From the NCBI GenBank assembly GCA_913056175.1, contig CAJXLM010000006.1, positions 1 through 64,000 on the forward strand: DNA of 64,000 bases. Reading direction: 5' to 3'. The stretch comes from an uncultured Opitutia bacterium. Lineage in GTDB: Bacteria; Verrucomicrobiota; Verrucomicrobiia; Opitutales; Puniceicoccaceae. This document shows, piece by piece, positions 2,024-56,048 of the stretch (its first letter is position 1; each line of letters opens with the position of its first letter). A program made the position numbers and the translations under genes. Under the pieces are notes generated by a model. That model did not search any database, was not told the origin of the DNA, and saw only the letters and a list, made by a program, of their open reading frames with translations.

Positions 2024-3133
2024 TCAGTGGTGGTGGGCGAGGGAGTAGTGGGTGCCGATGGTACGGGTCAGCCGCAGCCATTCCTTCCATTGCCGATGGA
2101 GGGAAGCATGCAGCTGGCGCACTTCGCGCCGGAGGTGCCTGCGCCGGGAGGCGGAGGCCTGACGGAGTTCGGCGAGCTTCTCACGCACGGAGGCGGCATC
2201 GGTGTCGAACCGGTGGGCGAGGTGCTCAAGGCGTTCGGCGAGCTCGCGGGCGAGGGGTGCGGTGTGCTCCCCAAGGGAGTGGAGGAGCATCTTGCGGTCG
2301 CGCCGGACGAGGGACTTGCGGATGGTCAGGGAGTTGTTCTGGCGAAGGTTGCGGGCCAGTCCCAGGCGGGAGGCCAGCCAGATCATCCACTTGGAGGGGT
2401 CGAAGTGGTACCAGCGCACCCCGTTGCGGTAGTCGGAGGCGAAGGCGTGATGGTAGTTGTGGTAGCCCTCGCCAAAAGTCACCAGGGCGAGGAGGGCGTT
2501 GTCGACCGCGCTGAGCTCGCGGGCGTACGTCTTGGAGCCGAAGGTATGGCAGAGGGAGTTGATGAACCACGTGCAGTGGTGGATCATGGCCATGCGGAGG
2601 AGGAAGCCGAAGAAGAAGGACGCGAGCGGTCCAGTGAGCCACCAGCCGACGAGGAAGACGCCGACATTGACGGCAACGGTCAGCGGGATGAACCAGCGGT
2701 GCTGGCGGGCGACGCGTGGGTTGGCGAGCAGGTCCGGCACGAGGGAAGCGTCGAACTTACGCTCGTACTGGAAAAGCCAACCGACATGCGCGTACCAGAA
2801 TCCCTTTTCGATGGAGTAGGGATCCTCGTCGGTGTCGACCTTCCGGTGGTGGAGGCGGTGGTCATGGGACCAGTTCAGGGCGGACATCTCGAAGCCGAGG
2901 GTGGATCCGAGGAGGACCATCCATTCGAGGACCGGGTTGGCCTGGTAGGCCCGGTGGGCGTAGAGGCGGTGGTAGCCGACCGTGATGGAGAGACCACCGA
3001 TGGCGTAAGTGGCGAGGAAGAGTCCCCAAGCGGCCCAGGAGGACACCCCGAGGGCGAAGGGGAGAAGCCCCAGCAAGAGGACGTGGTATCCTACCACGAA
3101 CCCGAAAAGGAAACGATTGCGGATCTTCGGCAT
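2024..3133 (-). CDS. Acyl-CoA/acyl-lipid delta-9-type fatty acid desaturase
   Basis: 369 residues. It has the three histidine boxes of membrane di-iron desaturases: HRLYAH (about residues 55-60), HDHRLHH (about 90-96) and HNYHH (about 224-228), with hydrophobic helix pairs before the first and between the second and third. The tail from about residue 280 is a long charged, Arg/Glu-rich helical region that ordinary stearoyl-CoA desaturases lack. It introduces a double bond into membrane acyl chains. The gene stands alone, flanked by gaps of 122-277 bases. The exact position of the double bond cannot be read from the sequence. Confidence 0.9.
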   Translation of the reverse strand: MPKIRNRFLFGFVVGYHVLLLGLLPFALGVSSWAAWGLFLATYAIGGLSITVGYHRLYAHRAYQANPVLEWMVLLGSTLGFEMSALNWSHDHRLHHRKVDTDEDPYSIEKGFWYAHVGWLFQYERKFDASLVPDLLANPRVARQHRWFIPLTVAVNVGVFLVGWWLTGPLASFFFGFLLRMAMIHHCTWFINSLCHTFGSKTYARELSAVDNALLALVTFGEGYHNYHHAFASDYRNGVRWYHFDPSKWMIWLASRLGLARNLRQNNSLTIRKSLVRRDRKMLLHSLGEHTAPLARELAERLEHLAHRFDTDAASVREKLAELRQASASRRRHLRREVRQLHASLHRQWKEWLRLTRTIGTHYSLAHHH

Positions 3134-3255: not shown

Positions 3256-4176
3256 TCAGGTACCGTCCGCGGGAGGCGGTGCGGGCGCCGGCATCGTGCG
3301 ATCGAGGACCATCCGTCGGCGGGCCTCGCGGATGGCGAGCAGGTTGGCCACCAGAAGGACCGTAAGCACCAGGGCTCCGCCACCGAGGGCGCGTGGGCCC
3401 GGATTTTCGCCGAGGAACATCCAGACCAGCAACGGTGCGAGGACCGCCTCAAGCAGGAGGAGGGTGGAGACCTCGGCCGGGGTGATGTAGCGCGGACCCG
3501 TGCTGATCAGGCTCGTCGCAATGGGCACGCAGACCCCGCTGAGGGCGGCGATGAAGATCCAATCGGAGGGCCCGAGGGTGGCGGGCCGGGCAAAGGGGAG
3601 GAGGACCAGGGTGGTCAACGCGTAGGAGAGGACGACCGCCGGGACCATCGAGGTTTTCCGGGCGTGGCGGGCGATCGTGAACGCGATGGCCAAACAGAGG
3701 GCGGTCCCTACCGCGCAGAGGTCCCCGAGCGGGTTGCCGACCCCGCTGTGGACCGAACCCGAGACGATGATTCCCACGCCGACCATGCAGAGGACCACCG
3801 TGACCACCGTGCGGAGGCGGATCGGCTCGCGGAGGAAGATCCGGCTGATGACCGCAGCGTAGACCGGCGCCGTACTGAGGATGAAGACCGCGTTGGCGAC
3901 CGCGGTGAGACTGACCGCGGTGACGAAGAGCAGGGAGGCGAAACTGAAGATGACCGCGTAGGCAATTCCCGGCCGACCCAGGGCGCGGAAGGCCGGCAAC
4001 GGGTTCCCCCGGGAGGTCACCGTGAGGAAGAGGAAGATCATCACCCCGGCGGGCAGCGCCCGCCAGAAGGTGGTGGTCAGCGGGGGCGCGTCGATCAGGC
4101 GGATGAAGAGACTGTCCGGGCTGATAAAGACCACCCCGAGGGTGGTGAGGAGGAGGCCTTTGGCCTGGTCGGTCAT
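3256..4176 (-). CDS. EamA/DMT-family transporter (10-TM exporter)
   Basis: 306 residues beginning MTDQAKGLLLTTLGVVF. I chose the ATG at 4176 over one 30 bases upstream because the next residues run straight into the first membrane helix. About ten hydrophobic segments form two EamA repeats, and the C-terminal half contains the usual Pro/Glu region (ITPAEVSTLLLLEAVLAPLLVW). This drug/metabolite superfamily exports amino acids, nucleotides or other metabolites; the substrate is unknown. It lies downstream of the MetF-like gene on the same strand (88-base gap) and could be the last gene of the methyl-catabolism cluster. Confidence 0.85.
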   Translation of the reverse strand: MTDQAKGLLLTTLGVVFISPDSLFIRLIDAPPLTTTFWRALPAGVMIFLFLTVTSRGNPLPAFRALGRPGIAYAVIFSFASLLFVTAVSLTAVANAVFILSTAPVYAAVISRIFLREPIRLRTVVTVVLCMVGVGIIVSGSVHSGVGNPLGDLCAVGTALCLAIAFTIARHARKTSMVPAVVLSYALTTLVLLPFARPATLGPSDWIFIAALSGVCVPIATSLISTGPRYITPAEVSTLLLLEAVLAPLLVWMFLGENPGPRALGGGALVLTVLLVANLLAIREARRRMVLDRTMPAPAPPPADGT

Positions 4177-4264
4177 GGTTCCCGAGCAAACCCTTGCCTC
4201 CCCCACCCTGCCGAGGGGAAAAGCGGCCCGGGCGTGGGTTCTCCCCGGCCGGCCCCGCCCGCGC

Positions 4265-5248
4265 TCACTCGAGGGTCACCTTGTGCTGCTCCCGGAGTGG
4301 CAGCTTCTGCAGGTAATCGATGCTGCGGGCGTGGTTGTTGAAAGGGAAGACGTGGAAGTGCTGGAGCATCGCGTAGCGGTCCGGATCCGGCTCGGAGAGC
4401 ACTTTCTCGGCGAGCGGGAGGAGGAAAGTCTCCGTGCGGTAGCCACGGGAGAGGTTGGAGATGTTCGCAGCTTCCTTGCGGAGGACCTTGAGGGAGTTGC
4501 CGATCCCGCAGATGACCGCGTACTTGATGAGCACCTGGAAGCCGACCACCCCGACCAGACCGGCCCGGATGGGGAAGTGGAGCCCGTGGGCGCGGAGCGT
4601 GTCGATCAGCCCCAGCAGCGAAGCCGTCGCGAAGGTGAACTGCGTCATCATGCAGTACTCGTGCCCGTGCGAGGTGAAGTACTCGTACTTCTCCGTGTAG
4701 GCCTCGAGGATTTCCTCATCGGAGGCGTAGGGATGGGGCTCCGGGTGGCCGGCGACCGCGAAGGAGCGGATCCCGTACTCCTCGAAGAGCCCCGTGTGGA
4801 GGAGGTCCATGACCGTCCGGTAGGGTCCGCGCTGCTCCTTGAGCCCACCCCCGAGGAGGAGGATCTCGTCGAGCCCCAGCGACTGGAGGTTGGCGAGGAA
4901 GGCACGGAGGGTGGCCTCGTCCGGGACGAACCGCGCCGCCAGGTGGGGCACGGGCAGGTAGCCCGCGCGAAGGGCATTCTCGTAGGACTTGGTGGTCTTG
5001 GTGAGGTCCGTGTTCGGGAGGTGGACCACGTAGATGCGGGAGCCGGCGGGGAGGAGCCCATTGAGTTTCTCCGCGTTCTTGGTCTCCGCCGGCGTCATCT
5101 CATAGGAGACATCGGCGAGCATCCGCCCGAGCCAGGCGTACTTGTCCTCGTCGGAAATGATACCGACCGGCCGCCTCCGGCCGATCCCCATCTTCTGGAG
5201 GAGGCCAAGGATGCCGGGGTGGGGAGCGGAAGAAGCGTTCTTTTTCAT
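4265..5248 (-). CDS. Methylenetetrahydrofolate reductase-like protein
   Basis: 327 residues with the TIM-barrel character of the MetF family (LGLDEILLLGGG at about residue 125, the VAGHPEPHP stretch typical of MTHFR near 162-170, then MTQFTFATASL). It is clearly divergent from housekeeping MetF, with its own N-terminus and a long C-terminal third. In this setting it most likely runs in the oxidative direction, turning 5-methyl-THF from a demethylase into 5,10-methylene-THF. It follows fhs on the same strand after a gap of about 130 bases. Which redox partner it uses cannot be seen. Confidence 0.75.
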   Translation of the reverse strand: MKKNASSAPHPGILGLLQKMGIGRRRPVGIISDEDKYAWLGRMLADVSYEMTPAETKNAEKLNGLLPAGSRIYVVHLPNTDLTKTTKSYENALRAGYLPVPHLAARFVPDEATLRAFLANLQSLGLDEILLLGGGLKEQRGPYRTVMDLLHTGLFEEYGIRSFAVAGHPEPHPYASDEEILEAYTEKYEYFTSHGHEYCMMTQFTFATASLLGLIDTLRAHGLHFPIRAGLVGVVGFQVLIKYAVICGIGNSLKVLRKEAANISNLSRGYRTETFLLPLAEKVLSEPDPDRYAMLQHFHVFPFNNHARSIDYLQKLPLREQHKVTLE

Positions 5249-5380: not shown

Positions 5381-7048
5381 TCAGGAGAGCCCGGAGATGA
5401 CCCCGTCGGCATCGACGGACATCCCGGCAGCCGAGGGGATGCGCGGGAGGCCCGGCATGCGCATGATTTCCCCGCTGAGGGCGACGAGGAAGCCCGCACC
5501 CGTGTTGGCGACGACATCGCGGACCTCGAGGAGATGATCTTCGGGGGCACCGATCAGCTCCGGATCGTTGGAGAAGCTGTACTGGGTCTTGGCCATGCAG
5601 ATCGGCAGGTCGCCGAAGCCATCTTCCTCGCACTGCTCGATCTTCCGCATGGCCACGCGGGTGAGCTGCACGTCGCGGGCGCGGTAGATCCCCTTGGCGA
5701 TCGCGTCGATCTTCTCGATGAGGGAGAGGGAGGAGTCGTAGAGCGGGCGGAAGTCGGCGGTGCCCTCCTCGACCACCTCGACGACCGAACGGGCGAGGTC
5801 GACCGTGCCCGCGCTGCCCTCGGCCCAGTGCTTGCAGAGATGGGCCCGTACCCCCAGCTGGCGGCAGGCCTCCAGGACCACCTCGATTTCCGCCTCGGTG
5901 TCCGTGTGGAAGTGGTTCAGGCACACCACGACCGGCACGCCGAACTTGGCAAGGTTCTCGAGGTGGCGGCGCAGGTTGGCGAGTCCCCGCTCGACCGCGC
6001 CCGGATCCTCCTGGCCGAGGTCCTTCTTGCCGACTCCCCCGTGCATCTTGAGAGCGCGCACCGTTGCCACGATGACGGCGGCATCCGGCTGGAGCCCCGC
6101 CTTGCGGCACTTGATGTCGAAGAACTTCTCCGCGCCGAGGTCAGCGCCGAAGCCGGCCTCCGTGACCGTGTAGTCGGCCAGCTGCAGACCCATCTTCGTG
6201 GCCATGGCGGAGGAACAGCCGTGGGCGATGTTCGCGAAGGGTCCCCCGTGGATGAAGACCGGATTCTGCTCGAGGGTCTGCACGAGGTTCGGGAGGATCG
6301 CCTCCTTGAGGAGGACGCCCATGGCACCCTGCGCATCGAGGGCCCGGGCGAAGACCCGCTCCTTGTCGCGGTTTCGCCCGAGGGTGATCCGCCCCAGCTT
6401 GTCCATGAGGTCCTCGAGGCCCGTGGCCAGGCAGAGAATCGCCATGATCTCGGAGGCCACCGTGATGTCGAAACCCGTCTCGCGGGGGTTCCCGTTCTTC
6501 TTGCCGAGGGAGATGACGATGTCGCGGAGGGCGCGGTCGTTCATGTCGATGACCCGCTTCCACTCGACGGTCCCCGGTTTCAGGTCGAGCGGGTTGTCCC
6601 AGTAGAGGCTGTTGTCGAGCAGGGCGGCGAGCAGGTTATGGGCGGAGGTGACCGCGTGGAAATCCCCCGTGAAGTGGAGGTTGATGTCCTCCATCGGGAT
6701 CACCTGGGAGTAGCCTCCGCCGGCGGCCCCGCCCTTCATGCCGAAGCACGGCCCGAGGGAGGGCTCGCGCAGGCAGGCCACCGTCTTCTTGCCGATCGCG
6801 TTGAGCCCGTCCGTCAGCCCGATCGTCGTGGTCGTCTTGCCCTCCCCAGCCGGGGTCGGGTTGATCGCGGTGACCAGGACCAGCTTGCCGTCCGGCTGGG
6901 GAGGCAGGCTGTTGTAGTACTGAAGGTCGACCTTTGCCTTGTCCCGGCCGAAGGGGACAAGACCCTCGCGGGCGATCCCGAGCTTGTCGGCGATCTCCTC
7001 GATCGGGCGCGGCGTGAACTGGTGGGCGATTTCGGCGTCGGTGGGCAT
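5381..7048 (-). CDS. fhs: Formate-tetrahydrofolate ligase
   Basis: 555 residues, the usual length of the family. The start [16 protein letters not shown] (7048) fits family N-termini; an upstream ATG would add a low-complexity Pro/Ser leader. The nucleotide-binding stretch [16 protein letters not shown] (about residues 62-77) and the [20 protein letters not shown] signature (about 93-112) are intact. The enzyme interconverts formate + ATP + THF and 10-formyl-THF. Between a MetF-like gene and two THF-dependent dehydrogenases it can release formate and gain ATP from demethylation carbon, the reverse of its textbook direction; that is inference from context. Confidence 0.97.
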
Positions 7049-7156
7049 GGGGCTGGGGGATTCGGGAGGGAGAAGGGAGACGGAGGGGAAAATGGGGGGC
7101 GGCGGAAGCGGAGACCGGCTTCCGGAAAGGGGCACCGAGGGGACTGGGCGGATTTC

Positions 7157-9640
7157 CTAGGCCTTGATTCTCTCCATTTTCGGATCGTACATCGGCTCGA
7201 GGGAGGGCACCGCGGCGACTTTCTCGTTCATCACGCTGATCTCGTACTTCGCGTCGAGCAGGTAGTCGGCATCGGCGACCCCGTGGTGGTTGTGGACATA
7301 ACCGAGCCCGATGGAGGTCCCGAAGTAGGGGGAGAACTGGCCGGAGGTCAGGTGCCCCACCTTCTCACCATTCCGGTAGATCGGCTCGTAGTGGTAGAGG
7401 AGCGGTTCCGGATCCTCCAGGCGGAAGGCGACCAGCTTCCGGGAGGTTCCGTTGCGCTTCTGCTCGGCGATGTGCTCCTTGCCGAGGAAGTCGTGGGGCT
7501 TCTTGATCCGGGCGGCGAAGCCGACGTTCGCCTCCACCGGGGTCTCCGCGGCGGAGACATCGTGCCCCCAGTGGATGAAGGACTTCTCGAGGCGGAGGGA
7601 ATTGATCGCGTGGTAGCCGGCCATACGGACCCCGAGCGTCTCTCCCTCCTGCATGAGCAGGTCGTAGGCGGCGGGGGCGTACTCGCTGCCGAGGGAGATC
7701 TCCCAGCCCAGTTCCCCGACGAAGGTGATCCGGGTGGCCCGGGCGCGGGCATAGCCGAAATCGATCATCCGGGAGGTGGCGAAGGGGAAGGCCTCGTTGG
7801 AGAAGTCGGCGTTGGAAACCCGCTGGAGCAGCTCGCGGGAGCGCGGCCCCATCACCCCGAGGACCGCGTAGCCGGAGGTGATGTCGGTGACCGTCGCGGC
7901 GAAGTCGCGCTCCTCGATCCGCTTCTGCAGGTACCAGAAGTCGTGGGCCTGGCTGGAGGCCGTTGTGTAGACGAGGAACTGGCACTCGCCGACCCGGGTG
8001 ACGGTGACATCCCCCTCGATCCCGCCGCGCTCGTTGAGCAGCTGGGTGTAGACGACCTTGCCGACCGGCACGTCGATGCGGTTGCCGCAGGTCCACTCCA
8101 GCAGGTCGAGGGCCTCCTTGCCCTGGACGAGAAACTTGCCGAAGGAGGTCTGGTCGAAGACGGCGACATTCTCGCGGGCGGCCATGTGTTCCTCCGCCGA
8201 GTAGGGGAACCAGTTCTGGCGGCCGAAGGTGTACTCGTACTTTGGCTCGACCCCGGCGGGAGCGTACCAGTTCGCACGCTCCCAGCCGGACATCTCCCCG
8301 AAGCAGGCCCCCCGGGCGGCCAGTCGGTCGTGCAGCGGGGACGTCCGCACCGGGCGGGCCGACTCGATCTGCAGGTAGGGGAAGTTGATGTCGTAGAGCA
8401 GCCCGAGGATCTCCGTGCCCCGTTCCTCGAGGAAGCGCCGGTTGGCGGTGTGCTGGGGCGGCCGGATCGCCTCGATGTCGTGGGTGTCGTAGCGGGTGGG
8501 AGGCGTGCCCGAGAGAATGTACTCGGCGATGTAGCGGCCGGCCCCGCCGCAGGACTGGATCCCGCGGGAGTTGAAGCCGGCGGCGATGAGCAGGTTCTGC
8601 AGGTTCTGGGCCTCGCCGAGGAAGTAGTTGTTGTCGTAGGTGAAGGACTCCGGCCCGTTCATGTAGGTCTCGATGCCGACCTCACGCACGGCGGGGACGC
8701 GGTGGCGGACGTACTCGTAGACCTCGGCGGCGTGCTCCCAGTCCTCGTCGAGCCGGCCAAACTCGAAGTCCTCGGGAATTCCGTGGCGCGCCCACGGCTT
8801 GGCCGTGCGCTCGAAGAAACCCAGCATGAGGTGTCCCGTGTGGTCGTGCCAGCGGGTGCCGAGGGTCGGGCGCACGTAGCAGCGGGCGTCGAAGTCGCGG
8901 AGCAGGGGCAGGTCCGGGTCGATCCCCTCGAGGTGCTCGGTGAGCAGGTAGTAGTGCTCCATCGGCTGGAGGGGCACGTTCACCCCGTACTGGGCCGCGA
9001 AGTCGCGCGTCCAGATCCCGCCGGCGAGCACCACGTAGTCGGCGCGGATTTCTCCCTCCTCGGTGGTGACACCGGTCACCCGGTCGCCGTCGGTGAGCAG
9101 GCCGGTCACCTTCGTGTACTCGTGGACCTGGGCCCCGTGTTTCTCGGCGCCCTTGGCGAGGGCCTTGGTGCCCTCCTCCGGGTTGATGAGGGCGTCGTTG
9201 GGCACGTAGATCGCCCCGACGACATCGTCGATGTTCACGAGAGGCCACTTGTCCCGGGCCTCCCGCGGGGAGATCTCGTAGGCCTCCACATCGAAGGAGT
9301 CGGCGAGGGAGAGGGCCATGCGGAACTGCTGGTGGCGCTCCGGATGGGCGGTCACGAAAACCGAGCCCGTCCGCTTCCAGTCGATGTCGTGCCCGACCTC
9401 TTCGGCGACCTCCCGGAACATGTTGGTGGTCTCCTTGGCCATCATGATCATGGACTCGGAGGCCCGCATCTCTGAACAGATCCCGGCCGCGTGCCAGGAG
9501 GTTCCGGAGGAGAGGCTCTTGCGCTCGAGGAGGACGACGTCCTGGACGCCCTGGCGGGCCAGCTGGTAGGCGGTGCTCGTACCGATGACGCCGCCACCGA
9601 CGATGACGACGCGGGCGCGGGAGGGGAGGTTCTGGCTCAT
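7157..9640 (-). CDS. FAD-dependent dehydrogenase with GcvT domain, dimethylglycine/sarcosine type (second copy)
   Basis: 827 residues. Residues 1-390 or so form a DAO-type FAD domain with the dinucleotide motif VVIVGGGVIGTSTAYQLA. The stretch SGTSWHAAG carries the histidine that binds FAD covalently in DMGDH and SarDH. The rest is a GcvT-like folate domain with its barrel end. Such enzymes remove a methyl from dimethylglycine or sarcosine and pass it to THF as 5,10-methylene-THF. Its ATG overlaps the stop of the preceding FAD-GcvT gene by four bases (9637-9640). An open frame extends far upstream but only repeats that neighbour in another frame. Which of the pair takes dimethylglycine is not decidable from motifs. 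Confidence 0.9.
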   Translation of the reverse strand: MSQNLPSRARVVIVGGGVIGTSTAYQLARQGVQDVVLLERKSLSSGTSWHAAGICSEMRASESMIMMAKETTNMFREVAEEVGHDIDWKRTGSVFVTAHPERHQQFRMALSLADSFDVEAYEISPREARDKWPLVNIDDVVGAIYVPNDALINPEEGTKALAKGAEKHGAQVHEYTKVTGLLTDGDRVTGVTTEEGEIRADYVVLAGGIWTRDFAAQYGVNVPLQPMEHYYLLTEHLEGIDPDLPLLRDFDARCYVRPTLGTRWHDHTGHLMLGFFERTAKPWARHGIPEDFEFGRLDEDWEHAAEVYEYVRHRVPAVREVGIETYMNGPESFTYDNNYFLGEAQNLQNLLIAAGFNSRGIQSCGGAGRYIAEYILSGTPPTRYDTHDIEAIRPPQHTANRRFLEERGTEILGLLYDINFPYLQIESARPVRTSPLHDRLAARGACFGEMSGWERANWYAPAGVEPKYEYTFGRQNWFPYSAEEHMAARENVAVFDQTSFGKFLVQGKEALDLLEWTCGNRIDVPVGKVVYTQLLNERGGIEGDVTVTRVGECQFLVYTTASSQAHDFWYLQKRIEERDFAATVTDITSGYAVLGVMGPRSRELLQRVSNADFSNEAFPFATSRMIDFGYARARATRITFVGELGWEISLGSEYAPAAYDLLMQEGETLGVRMAGYHAINSLRLEKSFIHWGHDVSAAETPVEANVGFAARIKKPHDFLGKEHIAEQKRNGTSRKLVAFRLEDPEPLLYHYEPIYRNGEKVGHLTSGQFSPYFGTSIGLGYVHNHHGVADADYLLDAKYEISVMNEKVAAVPSLEPMYDPKMERIKA

Positions 9641-12162
9641 GATGCGGTCTGCGGGGAGGAGGTCTCGGTGGGGGCGGGGGAACCGGCCGGCTGGCGGGCC
9701 GGGCGAATCTTCTCGTAGTGAGGGTCGTAGAGGGTGTCGGGAGCGACAAAGGCGCGGTAGCGCCGGCCGAAGTACTCCATGAACAGCTCGGTCCCCTCGG
9801 CGAAGTGGCCGGCGGCGAGGTAGGCGAAGCCGATGGAGGCGTCGACCGCGTAGCCGTAGTCGGCGCTCGTCACGTAGCCGATGCGGCGGCCCTCGCGGTC
9901 GTAGACCGTCTCGCTGCCCTGGAGGATGATGGTGGGGTTCTCCATCCGGAAGGTGCAGAGACGGACCTGCGGCCCGTCCTCGCGAACCCGGGCGAGGGTA
10001 TCGCGCCCGAGGAAGTCGCCCTTCTTCCAGCTGATGACGAAGTCCGTGCCGACCTCGAAGGGGTTCTCGTTCTGGGCCATATCCCCGCCCCACGAGCGGT
10101 AGGACTTCTCGATGCGGAGGGAGTTGAACGCCCCTCCCCCGGCGGGAATGATCCCGTAGGGACGGCCGGCCTGCTCGAGCCGCTCCCAGAGCGTGCCGAG
10201 GTACTGCGGGTGGGTGTAGATTTCCCAGCCGGCCTCGCCCACGTAGGAGATGCGGAGCATGTAGCAGGGAACCTCCGCGATGTAGGCGAAGCGCCAGGTG
10301 AAGAACTTGAAGTCGCGGATGTCGCAGTTCGTCGAGCAGAGCGGCTGGACCACGCGGGGCGCATCCGGGCCCCAGATCCCGAGGGTGGCAAACTCGGAGG
10401 AGCGGTTGTGCAGGCGGACATCGCTGCGGTCCCCGACCTGCCGGCGGAGATGGGCCCAATCGTGGCCAGCGGAGCCCACCCCGGAGATCATCCAGAAAGT
10501 ATCCTCGTCCATCCGGGAGATGGTGATGTCGCTCTTCACCCCGCCGTGGTCGGTCATCAGGTGCGAGTAGGTGATCCGGCCAACCGCGCGGTCCACCTGG
10601 CTGGGCGTGTGGTACTGGAGGAAGCCGAGGGCGCCCGGACCGGAGATCTCGAAGAGCTGGAAGGCGCTCAACTCGTAGAGAGCCACCTTCTCACGGGTGT
10701 GGAGAGCCTCCACCTGCTGGATTGGCGACCAGTTCTGGTCGATCCACGGCCGCCGCTTGGGGAAGTCCGGCTGCACGAGAGACTCGTTGCACTGGTACCA
10801 GTGGGCGCGGTCGTAGCCCATGGTGTCGAAGAAGACCGCCCCGAGCTCGCGCTGCTTGTCGAAGATGGGGCTGCGGGCAATATGGCGGGAAGTCTCCGGC
10901 TGCCGCTGCGGATGGTTGATCGCGTAGACCGTGCGGTAGGCTTCGCCGCCGCGGTTGTGGATGTAGCGCGGGGAACCCCAGTGGTCGTAGATGCGGTTGA
11001 GGTCGGCCTCGTGGAGATCCTGCTGGGGCTCGCCGGCGTCCATCCACTCGGCGATGGCCTTGGCGAAACCGGCGGCGTGGGTGAACCAGATGGCTTCGGC
11101 AACCCAGAAACCGCGGGTCTTCAACGATTCGCCGAGGAAGGAGCCGCCGTCCGGGCTAAAGGAGAAGATCCCGTTCATCGTCTTGACGAAGCCCGGCTGT
11201 TCCTCGGCGAGCATCGGGAAGAGCTCACTGGAACGCTCCCAGCACTCGGTGAAGTCCCCGGGGGTGAACTCCCGCATGGAAGGCATGATCGGGGCCTCCC
11301 TCGGGTGGAGGACATCGCGGGCGTCGATGGGGATGGGCCGGTGGGAGTAATTGCCAATCCCGAACCCGCCCCAGTGCTGCCGGAAGTAGAGGGCGTGGTC
11401 CTGGTCGCGGAGGATGGGGATGCCGTGCTCGTGTCCGGCGAGGGCGCTCAACCCGCGGAGGTCCTCGGTAACCACGTACTGGTGCTCCATGGGAAGGAGC
11501 GGAATCGGCTGGCCGACCATCTCCCCGAGGAGCGGGCCCCAGAAGCCCGCGCAACAGAGGACGTACTCGCACTCGATACGGCCACGCGAGGTGACCACGG
11601 CGTCCACATGGTGGTGGGAGGTCTCGATGTCGAGGACGTCGGTCTCGTCGTAGAACTTCACCCCGCCCTCCTCCTCGGCGGTCTTCACGAGCACCTCCGT
11701 GCAGACCCCGATCCGGCCGACCCCGTCATCGCCGACGTAGTACCCGCCGAGCACCTCGCGCTCGTCGAGGAAGGGCACCCTCTCCTTGCATTCCTGCGGG
11801 GAGAGGACCACCCCGTCGAGCCCCCAGCTGTGGCCGATGGTGCAGCGGCGGTGCAGCTCGGCGAGGCGCTCCGGGGTCCGGGCGAACTCGATGCCCCCGT
11901 TCAGCATGGCCCCGTTCAGGCCCTCCCCGTTCACCAGTTCGTCGTAGAAGTGCACCCCGTAGTGGGCCATCTCGGTCATCAGCTTCGACCCATTCGTCTG
12001 GAACATCCCGCCGGGGGCGTGGGAGGAAGACCCCCCGAAGTTGGGTCGCTTGCCCTGGTCAATGACCACGATGTCGCGCCAGCCGAGGCGGGTGAGGTGG
12101 TAGGCGGCGGAGCAGCCGACGATGCCGGCCCCGATGATGACGAGTTTCGCTTGGCTTTCCAT
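9637..12162 (-). CDS. FAD-dependent dehydrogenase with GcvT domain, dimethylglycine/sarcosine type (first copy)
   Basis: 841 residues with the same two-part build as the next gene: an FAD-binding DAO domain (LVIIGAGIVGCSAAYHL at the N-terminus) to about residue 400, then a GcvT/folate domain. The region that covalently binds FAD reads FGGSSSHAPGG. The histidine is kept, but its surroundings differ strongly from the SGTSWHAAG of the downstream paralogue, so the two probably have different substrates. The tail is low-complexity Pro/Ala/Ser/Thr. It follows the serine dehydratase alpha gene by 77 bases and overlaps the next gene through ATGA. Confidence 0.9.
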   Translation of the reverse strand: MESQAKLVIIGAGIVGCSAAYHLTRLGWRDIVVIDQGKRPNFGGSSSHAPGGMFQTNGSKLMTEMAHYGVHFYDELVNGEGLNGAMLNGGIEFARTPERLAELHRRCTIGHSWGLDGVVLSPQECKERVPFLDEREVLGGYYVGDDGVGRIGVCTEVLVKTAEEEGGVKFYDETDVLDIETSHHHVDAVVTSRGRIECEYVLCCAGFWGPLLGEMVGQPIPLLPMEHQYVVTEDLRGLSALAGHEHGIPILRDQDHALYFRQHWGGFGIGNYSHRPIPIDARDVLHPREAPIMPSMREFTPGDFTECWERSSELFPMLAEEQPGFVKTMNGIFSFSPDGGSFLGESLKTRGFWVAEAIWFTHAAGFAKAIAEWMDAGEPQQDLHEADLNRIYDHWGSPRYIHNRGGEAYRTVYAINHPQRQPETSRHIARSPIFDKQRELGAVFFDTMGYDRAHWYQCNESLVQPDFPKRRPWIDQNWSPIQQVEALHTREKVALYELSAFQLFEISGPGALGFLQYHTPSQVDRAVGRITYSHLMTDHGGVKSDITISRMDEDTFWMISGVGSAGHDWAHLRRQVGDRSDVRLHNRSSEFATLGIWGPDAPRVVQPLCSTNCDIRDFKFFTWRFAYIAEVPCYMLRISYVGEAGWEIYTHPQYLGTLWERLEQAGRPYGIIPAGGGAFNSLRIEKSYRSWGGDMAQNENPFEVGTDFVISWKKGDFLGRDTLARVREDGPQVRLCTFRMENPTIILQGSETVYDREGRRIGYVTSADYGYAVDASIGFAYLAAGHFAEGTELFMEYFGRRYRAFVAPDTLYDPHYEKIRPARQPAGSPAPTETSSPQTAS

Positions 12163-12239: not shown

Positions 12240-13154
12240 TCAGCCCTCCGGCTCGTTGGGCGGGGAGAACTTGCCGGTCTTGTACTTGCGACCGGTCGGG
12301 GTGGTGGCGAGCCCGCCCTCGGAGGTCTCCTTGAGCTGGCGGGGCATCCGGCGGCCGATGTCGTGGAGGGCGAGGATCACATGGTCCAAGGGAACCACGC
12401 AGCGCGCGTCCGCAAGCGCCATGACCGCAGCCTCGAAGCTGTGCACGGCGAACATCCCGTTGCGGCTCACGCAGGGCACCTCAACATAGCCGCCGATCGG
12501 GTCGCAGACCAGGCCGAGGGTGTTCATGAGGGCGAAGGAGCCCGCGTTCGCCGCCTGCTGGGGGCTACCGCCCTGGGCCTCGACGATGGCGGCGGCCGCC
12601 ATGCAGGAGGCGCTGCCCACCTCGGCCTGGCAGCCCCCGCGGGCGCCGGAGAAGCAGGCGTTCTTGCCGATGATCACCCCGATGCCCACGGCCGTGAAGA
12701 GGGCGCGGGCGGCCTGGCGGGTGGTGAGCCCCTCCTCCTCCTCGAGGGTGAGCAGGCAGGCCGGCACGATTCCAGCGGAGCCCGCGGTGGGAGTGGCCAC
12801 GATGCGGCCGAACTGGGCATTGCACTCGAGGACGGCAAAACCGTAGGCGATGGTGCGGGCGAAGCGGCTGCCCATGAGGGGGCGTTCGCCCTCCGAGTAG
12901 CGGTAGAGCTTGGCAGCGTCGCCACCGGAGAGCCCGCTCGGGGAGGTCCCGTGGATCTTGAGGCCCTCGGCCACGCTCTCGCGCATCTTCCCGTAGAACT
13001 CCTCCATCTTCGCGAGGAGCTCCTCGAGGGTGAGGCCCTGCTCGGTCGCCTCCCGCCGGAGGGCGACGTCCGCGATGGAGAGGTCGTGCTGCGCGCAGAG
13101 GGCGAGCAGCTCTTCAGCAGTGTCGTAGTCGAAGGAGGAGAGAACTTCGTGCAT
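12240..13154 (-). CDS. sdaAA: L-serine dehydratase, iron-sulfur type, alpha subunit
   Basis: 304 residues from MHEVLSSFDYDTAEEL, close to the usual alpha-subunit length. GGGAG lies a few bases upstream. An ATG at 13247 also has a good ribosome site but would add 31 Pro/Ser/Asp-rich residues. Cysteines of the 4Fe-4S region and the family stretches GSAGIVPACLL, KNACFSGARGGCQAEVGSASCMAA and CDPIGGYVEVPC are present. The enzyme deaminates L-serine to pyruvate and ammonia. Placed inside a THF-methyl catabolic cluster, it would drain serine formed from glycine plus methylene-THF. Confidence 0.94.
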   Translation of the reverse strand: MHEVLSSFDYDTAEELLALCAQHDLSIADVALRREATEQGLTLEELLAKMEEFYGKMRESVAEGLKIHGTSPSGLSGGDAAKLYRYSEGERPLMGSRFARTIAYGFAVLECNAQFGRIVATPTAGSAGIVPACLLTLEEEEGLTTRQAARALFTAVGIGVIIGKNACFSGARGGCQAEVGSASCMAAAAIVEAQGGSPQQAANAGSFALMNTLGLVCDPIGGYVEVPCVSRNGMFAVHSFEAAVMALADARCVVPLDHVILALHDIGRRMPRQLKETSEGGLATTPTGRKYKTGKFSPPNEPEG

Positions 13155-13259
13155 GGCTTTCTCCCGGGGCGGGGGTTGCGACGGATCCGGGGCAACCCCC
13201 CGGGACGAATCGCCGGGAGGAGGCGTGGCGGAGGGGTCGCGCTGCATGGTCTCCCTCCC

Positions 13260-13931
13260 CTAGCGGGCCGGGGCGATCACCCGAAGGGCGGTGGTGGATT
13301 CGATTCTCTCGAGGAGCGAGCAAACCTCCGGCAGGGGCGGCGCGTCGCACTCGATGACGGTGAGGGCCTCCGTCCCGCGCGAGCGACGGCTCGTGCGGAT
13401 CGTGGCGATGTTCATGTCCGCGCAGGCGAAGAGGCCAGTGATCTTCGCGAGGTAGCCCGGATGATCCCCGTGCCAGAGCACGAGAGTGTCGAGGTTGCCC
13501 CCGAACCGGGTCTTGAAGCCATCCACGCTGGTGATCTCGACAACCCCGCCCCCCACCGAGCTGCCCGTGACCACGTGGTGCTCGTGGTCCGGTCCATCGA
13601 GGTGGAGTCGGGCGGTGTTCGGGTGGGCCTCCTCGCCGAGGTCGGCGGACTCGAAGCTCACCTCGATCCCGGCGGCGGCGGCCAGCTCGAGGCTGTCCTT
13701 GAGCCGCTCATCCTCGGGCGTGTGCCCGAGGAGACCGGAGGCGAGCGCACGATCGGTGGCGTGCCCACGGCCCGTTGCCGCGAAGGAGCCGTGCAGCTCG
13801 ATGCGGACCCGGCGGGGGGCTTCCCGGCACAACGACCTCGCCACCCAGCCGATACGGACTGCCCCCGCCGTGTGGCTGCTGGACGGTCCGACCATGGCGG
13901 GCCCGATGATGTCGAAGGCCGAGAAGCCCAT
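13260..13931 (-). CDS. sdaAB: L-serine dehydratase, iron-sulfur type, beta subunit
   Basis: 223 residues from MGFSAFDIIGPAMVGPSSSHTAGAVRIG, a direct match to the family's N-terminal IGPSSSHT signature; the frame upstream of this ATG belongs to the preceding gene in another phase. The last 75 or so residues (LVLWHGDHPGYLAKITGLFACADMNI onward) form an ACT domain, the likely serine-sensing part. It precedes the alpha gene by 12-105 bases depending on the alpha start, giving the two-subunit arrangement of Gram-positive bacteria rather than the fused E. coli form. The gap from the demethylase gene upstream is 19 bases. Confidence 0.94.
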   Translation of the reverse strand: MGFSAFDIIGPAMVGPSSSHTAGAVRIGWVARSLCREAPRRVRIELHGSFAATGRGHATDRALASGLLGHTPEDERLKDSLELAAAAGIEVSFESADLGEEAHPNTARLHLDGPDHEHHVVTGSSVGGGVVEITSVDGFKTRFGGNLDTLVLWHGDHPGYLAKITGLFACADMNIATIRTSRRSRGTEALTVIECDAPPLPEVCSLLERIESTTALRVIAPAR

Positions 13932-13950: not shown

Positions 13951-15348
13951 TCAGTCCGCCCAGTCGCGGCCCTTGTACTTGGCCACCTCGCGGGCGTTGG
14001 GGTTGACGGAGGGACGGAAGGGCACTTCCACCACCTCACCGGAGACGGTGTTGCCGGGATGGCCCACGGCGTACTCATCCGGCAGCCAGACGTGCAAGCC
14101 GGTGCCGATCTCGGTCATGTCCAGCGGGACGTAGGCGAGCGCGATGTTGATCTGCAGCTCGGGGGAGTACCAGGGGGAGGTTACGTAGCCGACGGGATCC
14201 CCGGTTTCCTCGCGGGAGATCAGCCAGAAGTCGGAGGCGTAGTCGGTGACGGGGAGACCGCCAAAGGTGATCCCGACCATCTTCAGGGCGAAGGGAGGCT
14301 TCCCCGCCTCGATCTGGGCGCGGACCTCCTCCAGCCGGGCCTTGCCAATGTAGTCGGCCTCCTTCTTGCGGGGCACTTGGTAGGCAAGGTTCGTCTGGAA
14401 GGGGAGGGACTCCGCGTCGATGTCCTGGCCCCAGGAGAGGATGCCGGCGGCGATCCGCCGGTGGTGGGCCGGGGCAATCACCATGAGGTTGTGCTTCTCA
14501 CCGACCTCGAGCACCGTGTTCCAGAGCCGCTCCGCGTTGATCGTGGCGTCGTAGAGGTAGATCTCGTACCCCTTCTCCCCGGTGAAGCCCGTCTGCGAGA
14601 TGATGACGTCGCAACCGTCCACCTTTCCGGCCATGAGCCCGTAGTAGGGGATCTCGCGCACCTCTTCGCCGAAGAGGTCGGCCATGAGGGCTTCCGACTT
14701 CGGGCCCTGGATCTGGACCGGGGCCACGTCGATCTCGGCGATGCTCACATCGTAGCCCTTGCCGAGGTTCACTCCCCGCATCCACAGCTCGAGGTCACTG
14801 TCGGACAGGGAGAACCAGAACTCGTCCTCGGCGATGCGCAGGAGGACGGGGTCGTTGAGGATGCCGCCGTCCTCATTGCAAAGGATCACGTACTTGCCCC
14901 GCATCGGCTTGATCTTGGTGGCATCGCGGGTGATCACGTAGTTGACGAAGGCTTCCGCATCCGGGCCCTTCACCTGGATCTGCCGCTCCACGGCGACGTT
15001 CCACATGGTCACGTGGTTGACGAGGGCGTCGTACTCGACCATGGCGCCGCCCTCCTCGGGCCGCACGTATCCCCGCGGGTGGTACATGCGGTTGTAGACC
15101 GTCGCCCGCCAGCAACCCGCCTCGTGGGAAAGATGCCAGTAGGGGGACTTGCGCACACGCGTGGAGATGAGCATCTCCACCGGGGTCCGGCCACTCTGCC
15201 GGAGGTTGATCGGGACCTTCCGGTCGGACTGGTCGACCGTGCTCACCTGACCGGTGATCTGGCGGCCGAGAGCCGGGGTGGAGGCGGGAGCGGTGCTTTC
15301 GGCACCCGCTTCCGGGTTCGCATGTGGGGAGGAGTCAGACGTGCTCAT
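13951..15348 (-). CDS. GcvT-fold THF-dependent demethylase (DmdA/LigM-like)
   Basis: 465 residues. The first 45 are Ser/Ala/Pro-rich. Then comes a GcvT-type folate fold: RVRKSPYWHL, NRMYHPRGYV, the wDVaveRQi-like stretch MWNVAVERQIQVKGPDAEAF, the TRDATKI and NEDGGILNDPV segments, and a C-terminal barrel. The pattern resembles DMSP demethylase DmdA and the O-demethylases LigM/DesA more than glycine-cleavage T protein, and its length is near LigM. It should move a methyl from an N-, S- or O-methyl substrate onto THF. As first gene of the cluster, before serine dehydratase, the DMGDH-like enzymes, Fhs and MetF, it is a candidate glycine betaine (or DMSP) demethylase. No betaine-homocysteine methyltransferase is seen in the window. 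Confidence 0.75.
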   Translation of the reverse strand: MSTSDSSPHANPEAGAESTAPASTPALGRQITGQVSTVDQSDRKVPINLRQSGRTPVEMLISTRVRKSPYWHLSHEAGCWRATVYNRMYHPRGYVRPEEGGAMVEYDALVNHVTMWNVAVERQIQVKGPDAEAFVNYVITRDATKIKPMRGKYVILCNEDGGILNDPVLLRIAEDEFWFSLSDSDLELWMRGVNLGKGYDVSIAEIDVAPVQIQGPKSEALMADLFGEEVREIPYYGLMAGKVDGCDVIISQTGFTGEKGYEIYLYDATINAERLWNTVLEVGEKHNLMVIAPAHHRRIAAGILSWGQDIDAESLPFQTNLAYQVPRKKEADYIGKARLEEVRAQIEAGKPPFALKMVGITFGGLPVTDYASDFWLISREETGDPVGYVTSPWYSPELQINIALAYVPLDMTEIGTGLHVWLPDEYAVGHPGNTVSGEVVEVPFRPSVNPNAREVAKYKGRDWAD

Positions 15349-44980: not shown

Positions 44981-45011
44981 ACGGGGTGCCGGGTTTGGGA
45001 AGGGGGGAGGG

Positions 45012-50601: not shown

Positions 50602-50612
50602 CAAGGGCGGGA

Positions 50613-50639: not shown

Positions 50640-50641
50640 GG

Positions 50642-52360: not shown

Positions 52361-53632
52361 ATGGAACAGACGCAAGCAGGGGCTACCATGGAAGCTACCG
52401 AACAGGAGGCTTCCCCCGGCAGCCGTAAGGAAAAGGGGCCGCCCATCGTTCAGGTGGAGGGTCTCTACAAGATTTTTGGGACGAATCCGAAGGAACGCGC
52501 CCTCCCCCTCGTCGAGCAGGGCAAGTCCAAGGCGGAAATCCTCGAGGCGACCGGCTGTACGGTCGGCATCAACAACGCCTCCTTCAACGTTCACCAGCGC
52601 GAGATCTTCGTGATCATGGGGCTGTCCGGCAGCGGCAAGTCCACCGTCATCCGCTGCGTGAACCGCCTCATCGAACCGACTGCCGGCAAGGTCATTGTCG
52701 ACGGCCAGGATGTGGTCGAGGCCAACGCGGAACAGCTCCGCGAGATCCGGCGCAAGAAGATGAGCATGGTCTTCCAGCGCTTCGGCCTCCTCCCCCACCG
52801 CACGGTCCTCGACAATGTCGCTTTCGGCCTCGAGATCCAGGGGGTCGACCGCGCCGAACGCTACGAAAAGGCCGAGAAGGCCATCACCACGGTCGGCCTC
52901 GACGGCTACTCGGACAAGATGACCCAGGCCCTCTCCGGAGGGATGCAGCAGCGCGTCGGGCTCGCCCGCGCCCTCGCCAACGACCCGGAGATCCTCCTCA
53001 TGGACGAGGCCTTCTCCGCGCTCGACCCCCTCATCCGCGTGCAACTGCAGGACGAGCTCCTCGAACTGCAGGCCCGCCAGCACCGCACCATCCTTTTCAT
53101 CACCCACGACCTCGACGAGGCCCTCAAGATCGGCGACCGCATCGCCATCATGAAGGACGGCGCGGTCGTCCAGGTGGGCACCCCGGAGGAAATCCTCAGC
53201 AACCCCGCCAACGACTATGTGCGGGACTTCGTCGAGAATGTCGACCGCTCCAAGGTGATCACCGCGGGCTCCATCCTCCGCAAGACGGATGTCGCCTACA
53301 CCAATCATGGACCCCACCAGGCCCTCCGCCAGATGCGCCAGCTCGGGGTCGGCTCCCTCTACGTCCTCGACCGCGACCGCAAGTTTGTCGGTTTGATCAA
53401 GTCCGAGGAGGTCGCCGATCTCGCCCGGAAGACGCCCGAGAAGGACGACGCCACCAGCACCATCGAGCCGATCCTCCACCGCGAGTACAGCTCGACCCGG
53501 CCGGAGGTGCCCATCGCCGACCTGCTCGAGGAATCCGCCCGCAACGTGGTCCCCATCGCCGTGGTCGACGAGGAAGGTACCTTCCTCGGGATCGTCACCC
53601 GCCCTGCCATCCTCTCGGCCATCGCCGGATAA
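52361..53632 (+). CDS. proV: Glycine betaine/proline ABC transporter ATPase
   Basis: 423 residues from the ATG 52361; the ATG at 52388, with AGGGG upstream, is an alternative. KEKGPPIVQVEGLYKIFGTNPKERALPLV is the typical ProV/OpuAA opening. Walker A GLSGSGKSTVIR, Q-loop FQRFGLLPHRTVLDNVAFGLE, signature LSGGMQQRVGLARAL, Walker B ILLMDEAFSALDPL. Two CBS domains fill the C-terminus (about residues 300-420), as in OpuA, where they sense ionic strength. It powers betaine uptake with the permease six bases downstream and the binding protein after that. Confidence 0.96.
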   Translation: MEQTQAGATMEATEQEASPGSRKEKGPPIVQVEGLYKIFGTNPKERALPLVEQGKSKAEILEATGCTVGINNASFNVHQREIFVIMGLSGSGKSTVIRCVNRLIEPTAGKVIVDGQDVVEANAEQLREIRRKKMSMVFQRFGLLPHRTVLDNVAFGLEIQGVDRAERYEKAEKAITTVGLDGYSDKMTQALSGGMQQRVGLARALANDPEILLMDEAFSALDPLIRVQLQDELLELQARQHRTILFITHDLDEALKIGDRIAIMKDGAVVQVGTPEEILSNPANDYVRDFVENVDRSKVITAGSILRKTDVAYTNHGPHQALRQMRQLGVGSLYVLDRDRKFVGLIKSEEVADLARKTPEKDDATSTIEPILHREYSSTRPEVPIADLLEESARNVVPIAVVDEEGTFLGIVTRPAILSAIAG

Positions 53633-53638
53633 TTAGCC

Positions 53639-55204
53639 ATGATTCGACTCCCCATCGGTGAATACTTCGATGTCTTCGTCAACTGGCTGAAGGCAACCTT
53701 CAGCGGGCTGTTCGACTTCATCAGCGCCCTGCTGAACTTCTCCATCGACGTCCTCGAGAACACCCTGCTCCTCAACGAGCTCACGGGCTACGCCTCCATC
53801 CTCTTCGGGCTGCTGCTCTTCCTGGTGGCCGGGCTGCTCGGCCGCCGCCTCGGCGGACGGAAACTGTTCCTCCCCTTCGCCATCGTCGCCGCACTGATCT
53901 TCGGCGGGATGGAGACCTGGCGCACCCAGAATCTCGCCGCCAAGGTCACCCCGGAAGTGGCCTCGGCCATGGAGACGGACTTCTCCGAGCTGCGCAAGAG
54001 CCTGGCGGCCGAATTCCCCGCCGACTTCTCCGCCGCCCAGACACTGGTCAACAACATCCGCGAGGCCATCCCCGAGGAGGATGAGGAGGCCCGCCGCGAT
54101 GTCGCCCGGGCCTCCCGCTCCATCCGGACGGCCCGGGAGGGAGAGGTCGACGAGATCTACGACGCCCTCTCCGATACCCGCGAGGCCATCGCGGTCGACC
54201 CCGTGGAGGAAGCGGTTCCCCAGGCACTCCAGAGCCGGCTCGACGAGGCCATCAACCGCTACCGCACTTTCACCGCGGTGGACGAGGCCGACCGGCTCAT
54301 CGACGACCTCAAGAGGGTCGAGCCGGGCGACGACTACGACCTGCGCAACCAGTTCATCAACGCGCGCTCCTACGAGCGTCTCGTCGACGTCCTCGGCGCC
54401 ACCGAGGCCTACTACGGGGGTGCGGGGAACCAGCAGATCGCCGACGAGGCCGCCGGTGCCCTCCAGGAACTGCGCCTGCTCAATCCGGATCGCCTCCAGT
54501 GGCTGGCCCCGGTCTTCACGATCATCCTCCTCGCCATCGTGGCCTACTTGATCGCCAGTGGCGGGGTCGCTGTCTTCGCCGTGATCGGGCTGCTCCTCGT
54601 GATCTCCATTAACCTCTGGGTGCCCACCATGGAGACTCTCGCCCTGGTGCTCTCCGCCACCCTCTTCGCCCTGCTGGTGGGGATTCCGCTGGGGATTCTC
54701 GCCGCCCGCTCCGACTCCGCGGACAAAGCCATCCGGCCGGTCCTCGACTTCATGCAGACGATGCCCGCCTTCGTCTACCTGATCCCGGCGGTCATCTTCT
54801 TCGGGCTCGGGAAGGTGCCGGGTGCCATGGCCACCCTCATCTTCTCCATGCCACCGGCCGTCCGCCTCACCAACCTCGGCATCCGTCAGGTCCCCGAGGA
54901 AGTGGTCGAGGCCGCCCAGGCCTTCGGGGCCACCCCGCGGCAGATGCTCCTCAAGGCACAGCTGCCCATCGCCATGATCACCATCCTCGCCGGGGTCAAC
55001 CAGACCATCATGCTGGCCCTCTCCATGGTCGTCATCGGCGGCATGATCGGGGCCGGCGGACTCGGCGAAGTCGTCCTCTCCGGGATCACCCAGCTGAAGT
55101 TGGGCCTCGGATTTGAAGGCGGGGTCGCCGTGGTTATCCTTGCCATCTATCTCGACCGGGTCACTCAGGCGCTGGGTGCACCCAAAACCAAACCCAAAAA
55201 GTAA
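53639..55204 (+). CDS. proW: Glycine betaine/proline ABC transporter permease with large inserted domain
   Basis: 521 residues, far longer than OpuAB (about 280) or ProW (about 350). The start (MIRLPIGEYFDVFVNWLKATFSGLFDFI) and the end (from WLAPVFTIILLAIVAYLIASGG on, with the EAFGATPRQML-type coupling loop and GLGEVVLSGITQL) match OpuAB. Between them lie a pair of hydrophobic helices (about residues 53-97) and about 180 residues of mainly helical, charged sequence (about 98-278). The helix pair resembles the one that follows it, so it looks duplicated. The insert probably faces outside and might bind the solute-binding protein, the wall or ions. Confidence 0.93.
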   Translation: MIRLPIGEYFDVFVNWLKATFSGLFDFISALLNFSIDVLENTLLLNELTGYASILFGLLLFLVAGLLGRRLGGRKLFLPFAIVAALIFGGMETWRTQNLAAKVTPEVASAMETDFSELRKSLAAEFPADFSAAQTLVNNIREAIPEEDEEARRDVARASRSIRTAREGEVDEIYDALSDTREAIAVDPVEEAVPQALQSRLDEAINRYRTFTAVDEADRLIDDLKRVEPGDDYDLRNQFINARSYERLVDVLGATEAYYGGAGNQQIADEAAGALQELRLLNPDRLQWLAPVFTIILLAIVAYLIASGGVAVFAVIGLLLVISINLWVPTMETLALVLSATLFALLVGIPLGILAARSDSADKAIRPVLDFMQTMPAFVYLIPAVIFFGLGKVPGAMATLIFSMPPAVRLTNLGIRQVPEEVVEAAQAFGATPRQMLLKAQLPIAMITILAGVNQTIMLALSMVVIGGMIGAGGLGEVVLSGITQLKLGLGFEGGVAVVILAIYLDRVTQALGAPKTKPKK

Positions 55205-55208
55205 CCAT

Positions 55209-56048
55209 ATGACCAAGACGAAGACACTATCCGCCATCCTCGGTGCGGGTATCCTTGCCGCGGGCGTTCACGCCCAGACCGTCAAGATCGCCTACCCGAA
55301 CTGGGCTGAAGGCATCGCCATGACCAACCTCATGGCCGCTGTCCTCGAAGAGGAAATGGGCTACGATGTCGAACTGACCGTCGCTGACCCGGGCGTGATC
55401 TACTCCGCGGTTGCTGCCGGCGACCAGGACCTGTTCCTCGACGCCTGGCTCCCCAACACCCACGAACCCTACTGGGACGAGTACGGGGATCAGCTCGAGA
55501 ACCTCGGTACCACCTTCGGCAACGCCGTCACCGGCCTCGTCGTCCCCACCTACATGGAGGTCGACAGCATTGAGGACCTCAACTCCATCGCCCCCGATCT
55601 CGACAACAAGATCATTGGCATCGGGACGGGTGCCGGCATCTACCGGAACACCAATGTCGCCATCAATGAGTACGACCTCGAGCTGGTCCAGGTATCCTCG
55701 AGCGGACCGGCCATGACCGCCGCCCTCGGCGACGCCATCGAGAACAACGAACCGATCGTCATCACCGGCTGGAAACCCCACTGGATGTTCGGTCGCTACG
55801 ACCTCAAGGTCCTCAATGACCCGCTCGGTGTCTACCCGATCGACGGCTGCCGCAAGGTCGCCCGCCCGGGCTTCCAACAGGATATGCCCGAGGTCGCCGA
55901 GCTCATGCTGAACTTCACCATGACCGAGGATCAGCTGCTCGACCTCATGATCGCCATCGACGACTCCAACGACGATCCCCGCGACGTCGCCTCCGACTGG
56001 ATGCGCCGCAACCAGCCGGCCGTCGACTCCTGGATCCCCCGCTCCTAA
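55209..56048 (+). CDS. proX: Glycine betaine/proline-binding protein
   Basis: 279 residues. Signal peptide TKTLSAILGAGILAAGVHAQ, no lipobox, so soluble in the periplasm. The OpuAC fold is shown by VKIAYPNWAEGIAMTNLMAAVLEEEMGYDVEL, FLDAWLPNTHEPYWDEYGDQLE, the IIGIGTGAGIYRNT segment and ITGWKPHWMFGRYDLKVL, whose tryptophans form the betaine cage. Codon use and GC are again more biased than average. It starts four bases after the permease stop, and a terminator follows. Proline betaine, choline derivatives or DMSP are possible ligands as well as glycine betaine. Confidence 0.95.
   Translation: MTKTKTLSAILGAGILAAGVHAQTVKIAYPNWAEGIAMTNLMAAVLEEEMGYDVELTVADPGVIYSAVAAGDQDLFLDAWLPNTHEPYWDEYGDQLENLGTTFGNAVTGLVVPTYMEVDSIEDLNSIAPDLDNKIIGIGTGAGIYRNTNVAINEYDLELVQVSSSGPAMTAALGDAIENNEPIVITGWKPHWMFGRYDLKVLNDPLGVYPIDGCRKVARPGFQQDMPEVAELMLNFTMTEDQLLDLMIAIDDSNDDPRDVASDWMRRNQPAVDSWIPRS

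Follow-up and report, generated by a model that had tools for sequence, protein, structure and literature searches.

At positions 13951 to 15348 of the window, by which we mean the whole 64,000-nucleotide stretch analysed, lies a minus-strand frame with an ATG start that encodes a 465-residue protein, here called AMT, and whose GC content by codon position (0.63/0.43/0.91) is of the coding type. The product is a GcvT-fold methyltransferase, which we propose to be a tetrahydrofolate (THF)-dependent glycine betaine demethylase. Its gene is the first of a seven-gene minus-strand cluster comprising, in order of transcription, AMT, the beta and alpha subunits of a serine dehydratase, a dimethylglycine-oxidase-type enzyme, a dimethylglycine dehydrogenase (DMGDH)-type enzyme, a formate-tetrahydrofolate ligase (FTHFS) and a divergent methylene-THF reductase (MTHFR), with gaps of 19, 12, 77, -4, about 21 and 132 bp.

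The serine dehydratase is an Fe-S-dependent L-serine ammonia-lyase, with its beta subunit at 13260..13931 (minus; TIGR00719, 201 bits, cut-off 161) and its alpha subunit at 12240..13247 (minus; TIGR00718, 288 bits, cut-off 243); the likely beta start is the ATG at 13931, 19 bp past the AMT stop. Two enzymes combining FAD and GcvT domains follow, also on the minus strand and overlapping by 4 bp, which bears out the pair of DMGDH-type enzymes claimed by the initial annotation. The product of 9637..12162 (Pfam domains DAO, FAO_M, GCV_T and GCV_T_C) is nearest to Arthrobacter dimethylglycine oxidase (626.6 bits to 1pj5), while that of 7157..9640 is nearest to mammalian dimethylglycine dehydrogenase (430.6 bits to 4pab). 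With these different nearest relatives the two are not duplicates, and a dimethylglycine or sarcosine step is proposed for each. FTHFS is encoded at 5381..7135 (minus; PRK13505, 856.9 bits, cut-off 652; PF01268, 854.6 bits), although its true start may lie slightly downstream of 7135. The last gene, at 4265..5248 (minus), encodes the divergent MTHFR, which scores 146 bits to PDB 7xg9 and below 28 bits to biosynthetic MTHFRs, and which we propose would oxidise 5-methyl-THF.

After the operon, on the same strand, come genes for an EamA-type transporter (3256-4206) and a fatty-acid-desaturase-like protein (2024-3133); an EamA gene also adjoins AMT in Halomicrococcus (L036). The betaine importer said to share the window is indeed present on the plus strand at 52361..56048 (an ATPase with CBS domain, a permease and an OpuAC protein of 222.7 bits), but it lies outside the operon, about 37 kb away. 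Two further long frames, 43508-45052 (minus) and 50564-52264 (plus), have coding-type composition and no Pfam match.

AMT is a GcvT-fold protein closest to DmdA

AMT is a member of the GcvT-fold (AMT/GCV_T) superfamily, as both domains score over their Pfam cut-offs, far beyond chance (GCV_T 134.2 bits, cut-off 25.6; GCV_T_C 36.7 bits, cut-off 25.9), and the fold matches. No NCBIfam model (June 2026) was passed. The DmdA model PRK12486 ranked top at 264.5 bits, below its cut-off of 410, and was followed by the trimethylamine N-oxide demethylase model, GcvT and SoxA, all under cut-off. The two GcvT models gave 155.8 bits (cut-off 300) and 133.4 bits (cut-off 235.9), LigM 28.7 bits (cut-off 580) and DesA 43 bits (cut-off 800). 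The description of the protein as neither GcvT nor clearly DmdA was therefore borne out, the cut-offs for DmdA, GcvT and LigM all being missed.

Among PDB chains, DmdA 3tfh is the closest (E 5.6e-51). A first AlphaFold model built from 42 close relatives had a mean pLDDT of 70 and was poor near the N terminus; adding the GcvT domains of DMGDH and SoxA to the input raised the pLDDT to 85.1, with a pTM of 0.84. The best fold match of this model was again DmdA 3tfh, with a TM score of 0.94 normalised to target length; normalised to the AMT query, DmdA scored 0.75 and LigM about 0.59. Of the resemblance to both DmdA and LigM noted earlier, the DmdA part thus stands, whereas the LigM part does not go beyond the general fold. 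We also considered a LigM-like reading of AMT and rejected it on both score and fold.

In a maximum-likelihood tree, the AMT family formed one clade with support of 100/100 (100/99 without the long rows). DmdA formed a separate clade (100/98) without AMT, which contained the DmdA of the source genome; a second paralogue from that genome, on contig C18, fell in a third group. The AU test did not reject a grouping of AMT with DmdA to the exclusion of the remaining AMT-like proteins (p 0.113), which leaves the precise branching order in the DmdA-like half unsettled. The initial proposal would have been refuted had AMT fallen within a DmdA or LigM clade of proven function and retained its substrate residues; this was checked and is not the case, since AMT has its own clade and carries Phe255 at the position of DmdA Trp197.

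Aligned residues pointed to both shared and altered sites. AMT keeps the folate-binding Glu and Tyr (E262 and Y264), and nine of its residues are common to DmdA and not found in GcvT (R122, Q123, R141, N165, W178, S180, D183, E205 and S305). Trp171, in alignment numbering, has been called key for DMSP (PMC7487153); we mapped it to W197 of 3tfh by how far it lies from the folate-binding Glu and Tyr given in that paper. The corresponding position is Phe in 23 of 24 rows of the AMT family, and three of the eight DmdA rows themselves have Tyr there and not Trp. DmdA R194, K199, Q200, E238 and Tyr247 are replaced in AMT by Q252, G257, E258, R297 and W306, respectively.

Two haloarchaeal copies, L038 (9968-11332) and L046 (8001-9320), are jointly changed at nine positions (W80H, R81E, R87H, A292P, P293V, H295G, W306L, P392A and W393G). 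They have no pathway neighbours and lie in a sulfur-gene setting (TusA, DsrE, TauE and a sulfurtransferase). From these joint changes we infer that W80, R81, R87, A292, P293, H295, W306, P392 and W393 may line the substrate pocket and that the two copies would have changed substrate; perhaps they act on another compound, such as a sulfonium.

Gene neighbourhoods and distribution of the family

AMT belongs to a large, conserved and unnamed family, with more than 590 relatives turning up when 84,980 species genomes were scanned. Neighbourhoods were sampled for the best 80 of these (66-81% identity in the hit table; loci of mean length 18.6 kb), which come from Gammaproteobacteria, Alphaproteobacteria, Actinomycetes, Gemmatimonadota, Nitrospinota and acidobacterial classes. 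DMGDH was found in 56/80 loci, an MTHFR-like gene in 40/80, FTHFS in 23/80, sarcosine oxidase alpha in 18/80 and a GbdR-like regulator in 17/80; six loci, all from Marinobacter, had a serine dehydratase nearby. Where present, the MTHFR-like gene directly adjoins AMT, with the facing ends 83-460 bp apart. None of these neighbours occurred in 20 equally long comparison regions placed elsewhere in eight of these genomes (Fisher p values: DMGDH 3e-9, MTHFR 8e-6, GbdR 0.015), although the related loci are not independent. In SAR11-like loci the order SoxBDAG-DMGDH-MTHFR-AMT is found in a row, SoxD and SoxG being assigned by size and position only. In Marinobacter maroccanus, the product of a regulatory gene close to AMT scores 504.8 bits against the model for GbdR (cut-off 480), which is named for choline/betaine metabolism.

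Relatives of dmdB, dmdC and dmdD occurred in 0, 0 and 1 of the 80 loci, whereas annotated DmdA loci do have them. The genes betA and betB were rare (2/80 and 1/80), and the annotated neighbour clusters contained no recurrent gene for carnitine or proline betaine. Seventeen of the 80 loci, mostly from SAR86, had no pathway neighbours within the DNA examined. One SAR86A locus (L153, 4255-5559 and 8152-8898) has a shortened, 248-residue AMT copy near the full-length gene.

Orthologues with 54-66% identity were found on haloarchaeal plasmids by tblastn. The megaplasmid clusters combine AMT with two DMGDH-type enzymes, MTHFR and FTHFS, together with FolD, GlyA, folP, formate dehydrogenase or an ammonia-lyase; some include creatininase- and aspartoacylase-like genes, and a Haloarcula cluster contains AMT together with a Rieske protein. 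On three megaplasmids (L042, L043 and L036), folate-synthesis genes (folP, pabB and aminodeoxychorismate synthase) adjoin the module, as if its own folate supply travels along. In the phylum of the window, outside the source genome, only GcvT-level matches were found, and AMT was not detected in three genomes of the same family as the source. Given this patchy presence, the gene has probably moved horizontally.

The AMT-linked MTHFRs of Marinobacter, a SAR11-like genome and a haloarchaeon scored 118-175 bits to 7xg9 and below 50 bits to other MTHFRs. Counting that of the window, the linked reductase belongs to a single special type across four lineages. We take 7xg9 to be S6MTHFR of Sphingobium SYK-6. 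S6MTHFR of that strain is reported to oxidise the 5-methyl-THF produced by LigM (PMC12585457). The linkage of such an oxidase implies methyl-THF production by the neighbouring AMT. The criterion for a LigM-like module, a 7xg9-type MTHFR (here at 146 bits) and FTHFS in the same operon, was met.

Other demethylases in the source genome and in AMT genomes

The source genome (2.61 Mb, 96% complete) has two paralogues of AMT, on contigs C5 and C18. NCBIfam identifies that on C5 as a DmdA, with 635.5 bits against a cut-off of 410, so DMSP demethylation is already covered in this genome. The C18 paralogue (C18:33032-34096; L002) falls just under the same cut-off, at 382.9 bits. Its neighbours (L130, 8754-13177), as read from sequence, are OsmC-, enoyl-CoA hydratase- and acyl-CoA synthetase-like genes, and plasmids of Phaeobacter and Loktanella carry the same gene set.

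The initial annotation held that the betaine-demethylating step would be unfilled without AMT, which is true within the window. Genome-wide, MTTB is absent and no BHMT scores over cut-off (two homocysteine-methyltransferase-type proteins are both far below), but there is one Rieske protein, for which GbcA is the top-scoring family (167.5 bits, cut-off 670), so that an oxygenase route stays open as a rival. It is encoded at C15:44443-45033 (L129, L132), next to an FAD gene resembling monomeric sarcosine oxidase and the gene of a LysR-type regulator.

Most of the AMT genomes tested lack GbcA-, BHMT- and MtgB-type betaine demethylases. GbcA was over cut-off in 5 of 28, reached about 380-412 bits in six actinobacteria and had no counterpart above 160 bits in 17; MTTB and BHMT over cut-off were each found in 0 of 23, and DmdA over cut-off in 2 of 23. 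Among 81 genomes of the genus Marinobacter, AMT was present in 29, GbcA over cut-off in 7 and both in 4, that is, GbcA occurred in 4 of the 29 genomes with AMT and in 3 of the 52 others. Mutual exclusion of the two, as a sign of equivalence, was thus not found: AMT is commoner than GbcA in Marinobacter, but they are no strict alternatives.

Discussion

The fold of AMT, its operon, the families of the neighbouring genes, the conserved neighbourhood and the separate DmdA are established by sequence. With serine hydroxymethyltransferase assumed to be encoded elsewhere in the genome, the genes of the operon account for the steps from dimethylglycine to pyruvate as well as the disposal of methyl-THF. 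Within the operon this leaves AMT as the sole candidate for the conversion of betaine to dimethylglycine and for the making of methyl-THF. We consider it quite likely, in the absence of activity data, that AMT is a THF-dependent glycine betaine demethylase heading this route (betaine + THF -> dimethylglycine + 5-methyl-THF). The idea of a first demethylase in the GcvT fold is in this way supported as a candidate by the family's own clade and its betaine, dimethylglycine and sarcosine neighbours, activity on betaine being inferred. The serine dehydratase, FTHFS and methyl-THF-oxidising type of MTHFR come on top of the neighbours that the initial annotation had named.

In the proposed mechanism, AMT would be a soluble, single-chain, THF-dependent N-demethylase that transfers one methyl group of betaine, a quaternary amine activated much like the sulfonium of DMSP, to N5 of tetrahydrofolate, with dimethylglycine and 5-methyl-THF as the products. 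The MTHFR-like enzyme would then oxidise 5-methyl-THF to 5,10-methylene-THF, and the two FAD/GcvT-domain enzymes would convert dimethylglycine to sarcosine and glycine with the formation of more methylene-THF. Serine hydroxymethyltransferase could combine glycine and methylene-THF into serine, which serine dehydratase would turn into pyruvate, while excess one-carbon units would exit as formate via FTHFS with a gain of ATP. Substrate, reaction direction, step order and any regulation by betaine are inferred. The weak points of the betaine reading are the distant GbcA-like Rieske protein, the co-occurrence of AMT and GbcA in Marinobacter, the Haloarcula cluster with both AMT and a Rieske protein, the 17 loci without pathway neighbours, the distance of the importer and the inferred nature of the pocket residues.

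AMT could instead be a divergent DmdA acting on DMSP, or demethylate MMPA, the product of DmdA. The closest solved structure and NCBIfam model are those of DmdA, methyl transfer to THF is what one would expect chemically, DMSP can also enter through OpuAC/BCCT importers, and the AU test allows AMT and DmdA to group together. We regard this as unlikely, as the same genome already has a DmdA over cut-off and the family neighbours are betaine, dimethylglycine and sarcosine genes and not dmdB/C/D, both of which weaken DMSP as the substrate; moreover, few AMT genomes have a DmdA over cut-off, and DmdA W197, K199, Q200, R194 and E238 are all replaced.

Demethylation of another quaternary amine, such as carnitine, choline, proline betaine or gamma-butyrobetaine, with the product feeding the same one-carbon route, seems improbable when the neighbours are dimethylglycine and sarcosine enzymes, GbdR and betaine-type transporters, betA and betB are rare and no carnitine or proline-betaine gene recurs. 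The operon logic would nonetheless fit any methyl donor ending in dimethylglycine or sarcosine, and the creatininase- and aspartoacylase-like genes of some haloarchaeal clusters are compatible with such a donor. Very doubtful, finally, is a role for AMT on dimethylglycine or sarcosine, or as a folate-loading subunit of the DMGDH-type enzymes, with the Rieske protein demethylating betaine. Each DMGDH-type protein already has its own GCV_T domain, the methylene-THF that these enzymes form would need no linked MTHFR, and a tertiary amine is chemically a more difficult donor for non-oxidative methyl transfer; the conserved close linkage with DMGDH and the one GbcA-like protein of the source genome speak for such a role, against which 17 of 28 AMT genomes lack a GbcA-like protein above 160 bits.

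On the preferred betaine reading, there is a reasonable case, if a less firm one, that the betaine step is cobalamin-free and O2-independent, with direct methyl transfer to THF by a GcvT-fold enzyme, in a complete betaine-to-pyruvate module that has passed from one domain of life to another and occurs in Marinobacter, SAR86, SAR11-like bacteria, actinobacteria, Gemmatimonadota and haloarchaea. Glycine betaine is a salt-protecting compound. If the proposal is true, a single gene could serve to follow a route without O2 or B12 across many marine and hypersaline organisms, and the flux of betaine carbon to one-carbon pools and ammonium could be re-estimated. THF-dependent demethylation would then extend from the methyl groups of sulfonium (DMSP) and aryl-ether (vanillate) compounds to those of a quaternary amine.

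Comparison with known systems

No report of a GcvT-type or folate-linked betaine demethylase was found in the open-licence literature, which is weak evidence of absence. Known first steps of betaine breakdown, in the portions of PMC12478193 examined, are catalysed by GbcAB (Rieske), BHMT, and MtgB with MtgC/MtgA or MtgC/MtgD (cobalamin); GcvT is not mentioned in those portions. These systems perform the same conversion of betaine to dimethylglycine as proposed for AMT, but with unrelated folds and cofactors, and they depend on O2, homocysteine or cobalamin. Sun et al. (2011; PMC3160333) postulated, as speculation, a role in betaine metabolism for the AMT SAR11_1303, which lies near opuABC, and guessed that SAR11_1265, which adjoins metF, is on the DMSP route, demethylating MMPA. 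Both are predicted AMTs, and any membership of the present family would be conjectural. The trimethylamine N-oxide demethylase Tdm also has a GcvT-type THF domain, but it is a two-domain enzyme and AMT scores only 161 bits against its cut-off of 1100.

In its organisation, the operon resembles the LigM, S6MTHFR and LigH system of SYK-6 for vanillate/3-O-methylgallate O-demethylation, which likewise joins a THF-dependent demethylase with a methyl-THF-oxidising MTHFR and FTHFS; the FTHFS gene ligH is presumably located beside ligM. The kinship of AMT itself to LigM is remote (28.7 bits; the fold match shows about 16-17% identity), and none of the aromatic pathway of that system surrounds it. With DmdA (Candidatus P. 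ubique, 3tfh), AMT shares the GcvT fold, THF as the presumed acceptor, the folate Glu and Tyr and the nine residues that set both apart from GcvT. It differs from DmdA proper in its identity of about 28-33%, its separate clade, an N-terminal extension of about 60 residues, Phe255 in place of Trp197, and betaine and dimethylglycine genes where DmdA has dmdBCD. We therefore file AMT with the DmdA/LigM kind of THF-dependent demethylase, but not as DmdA.
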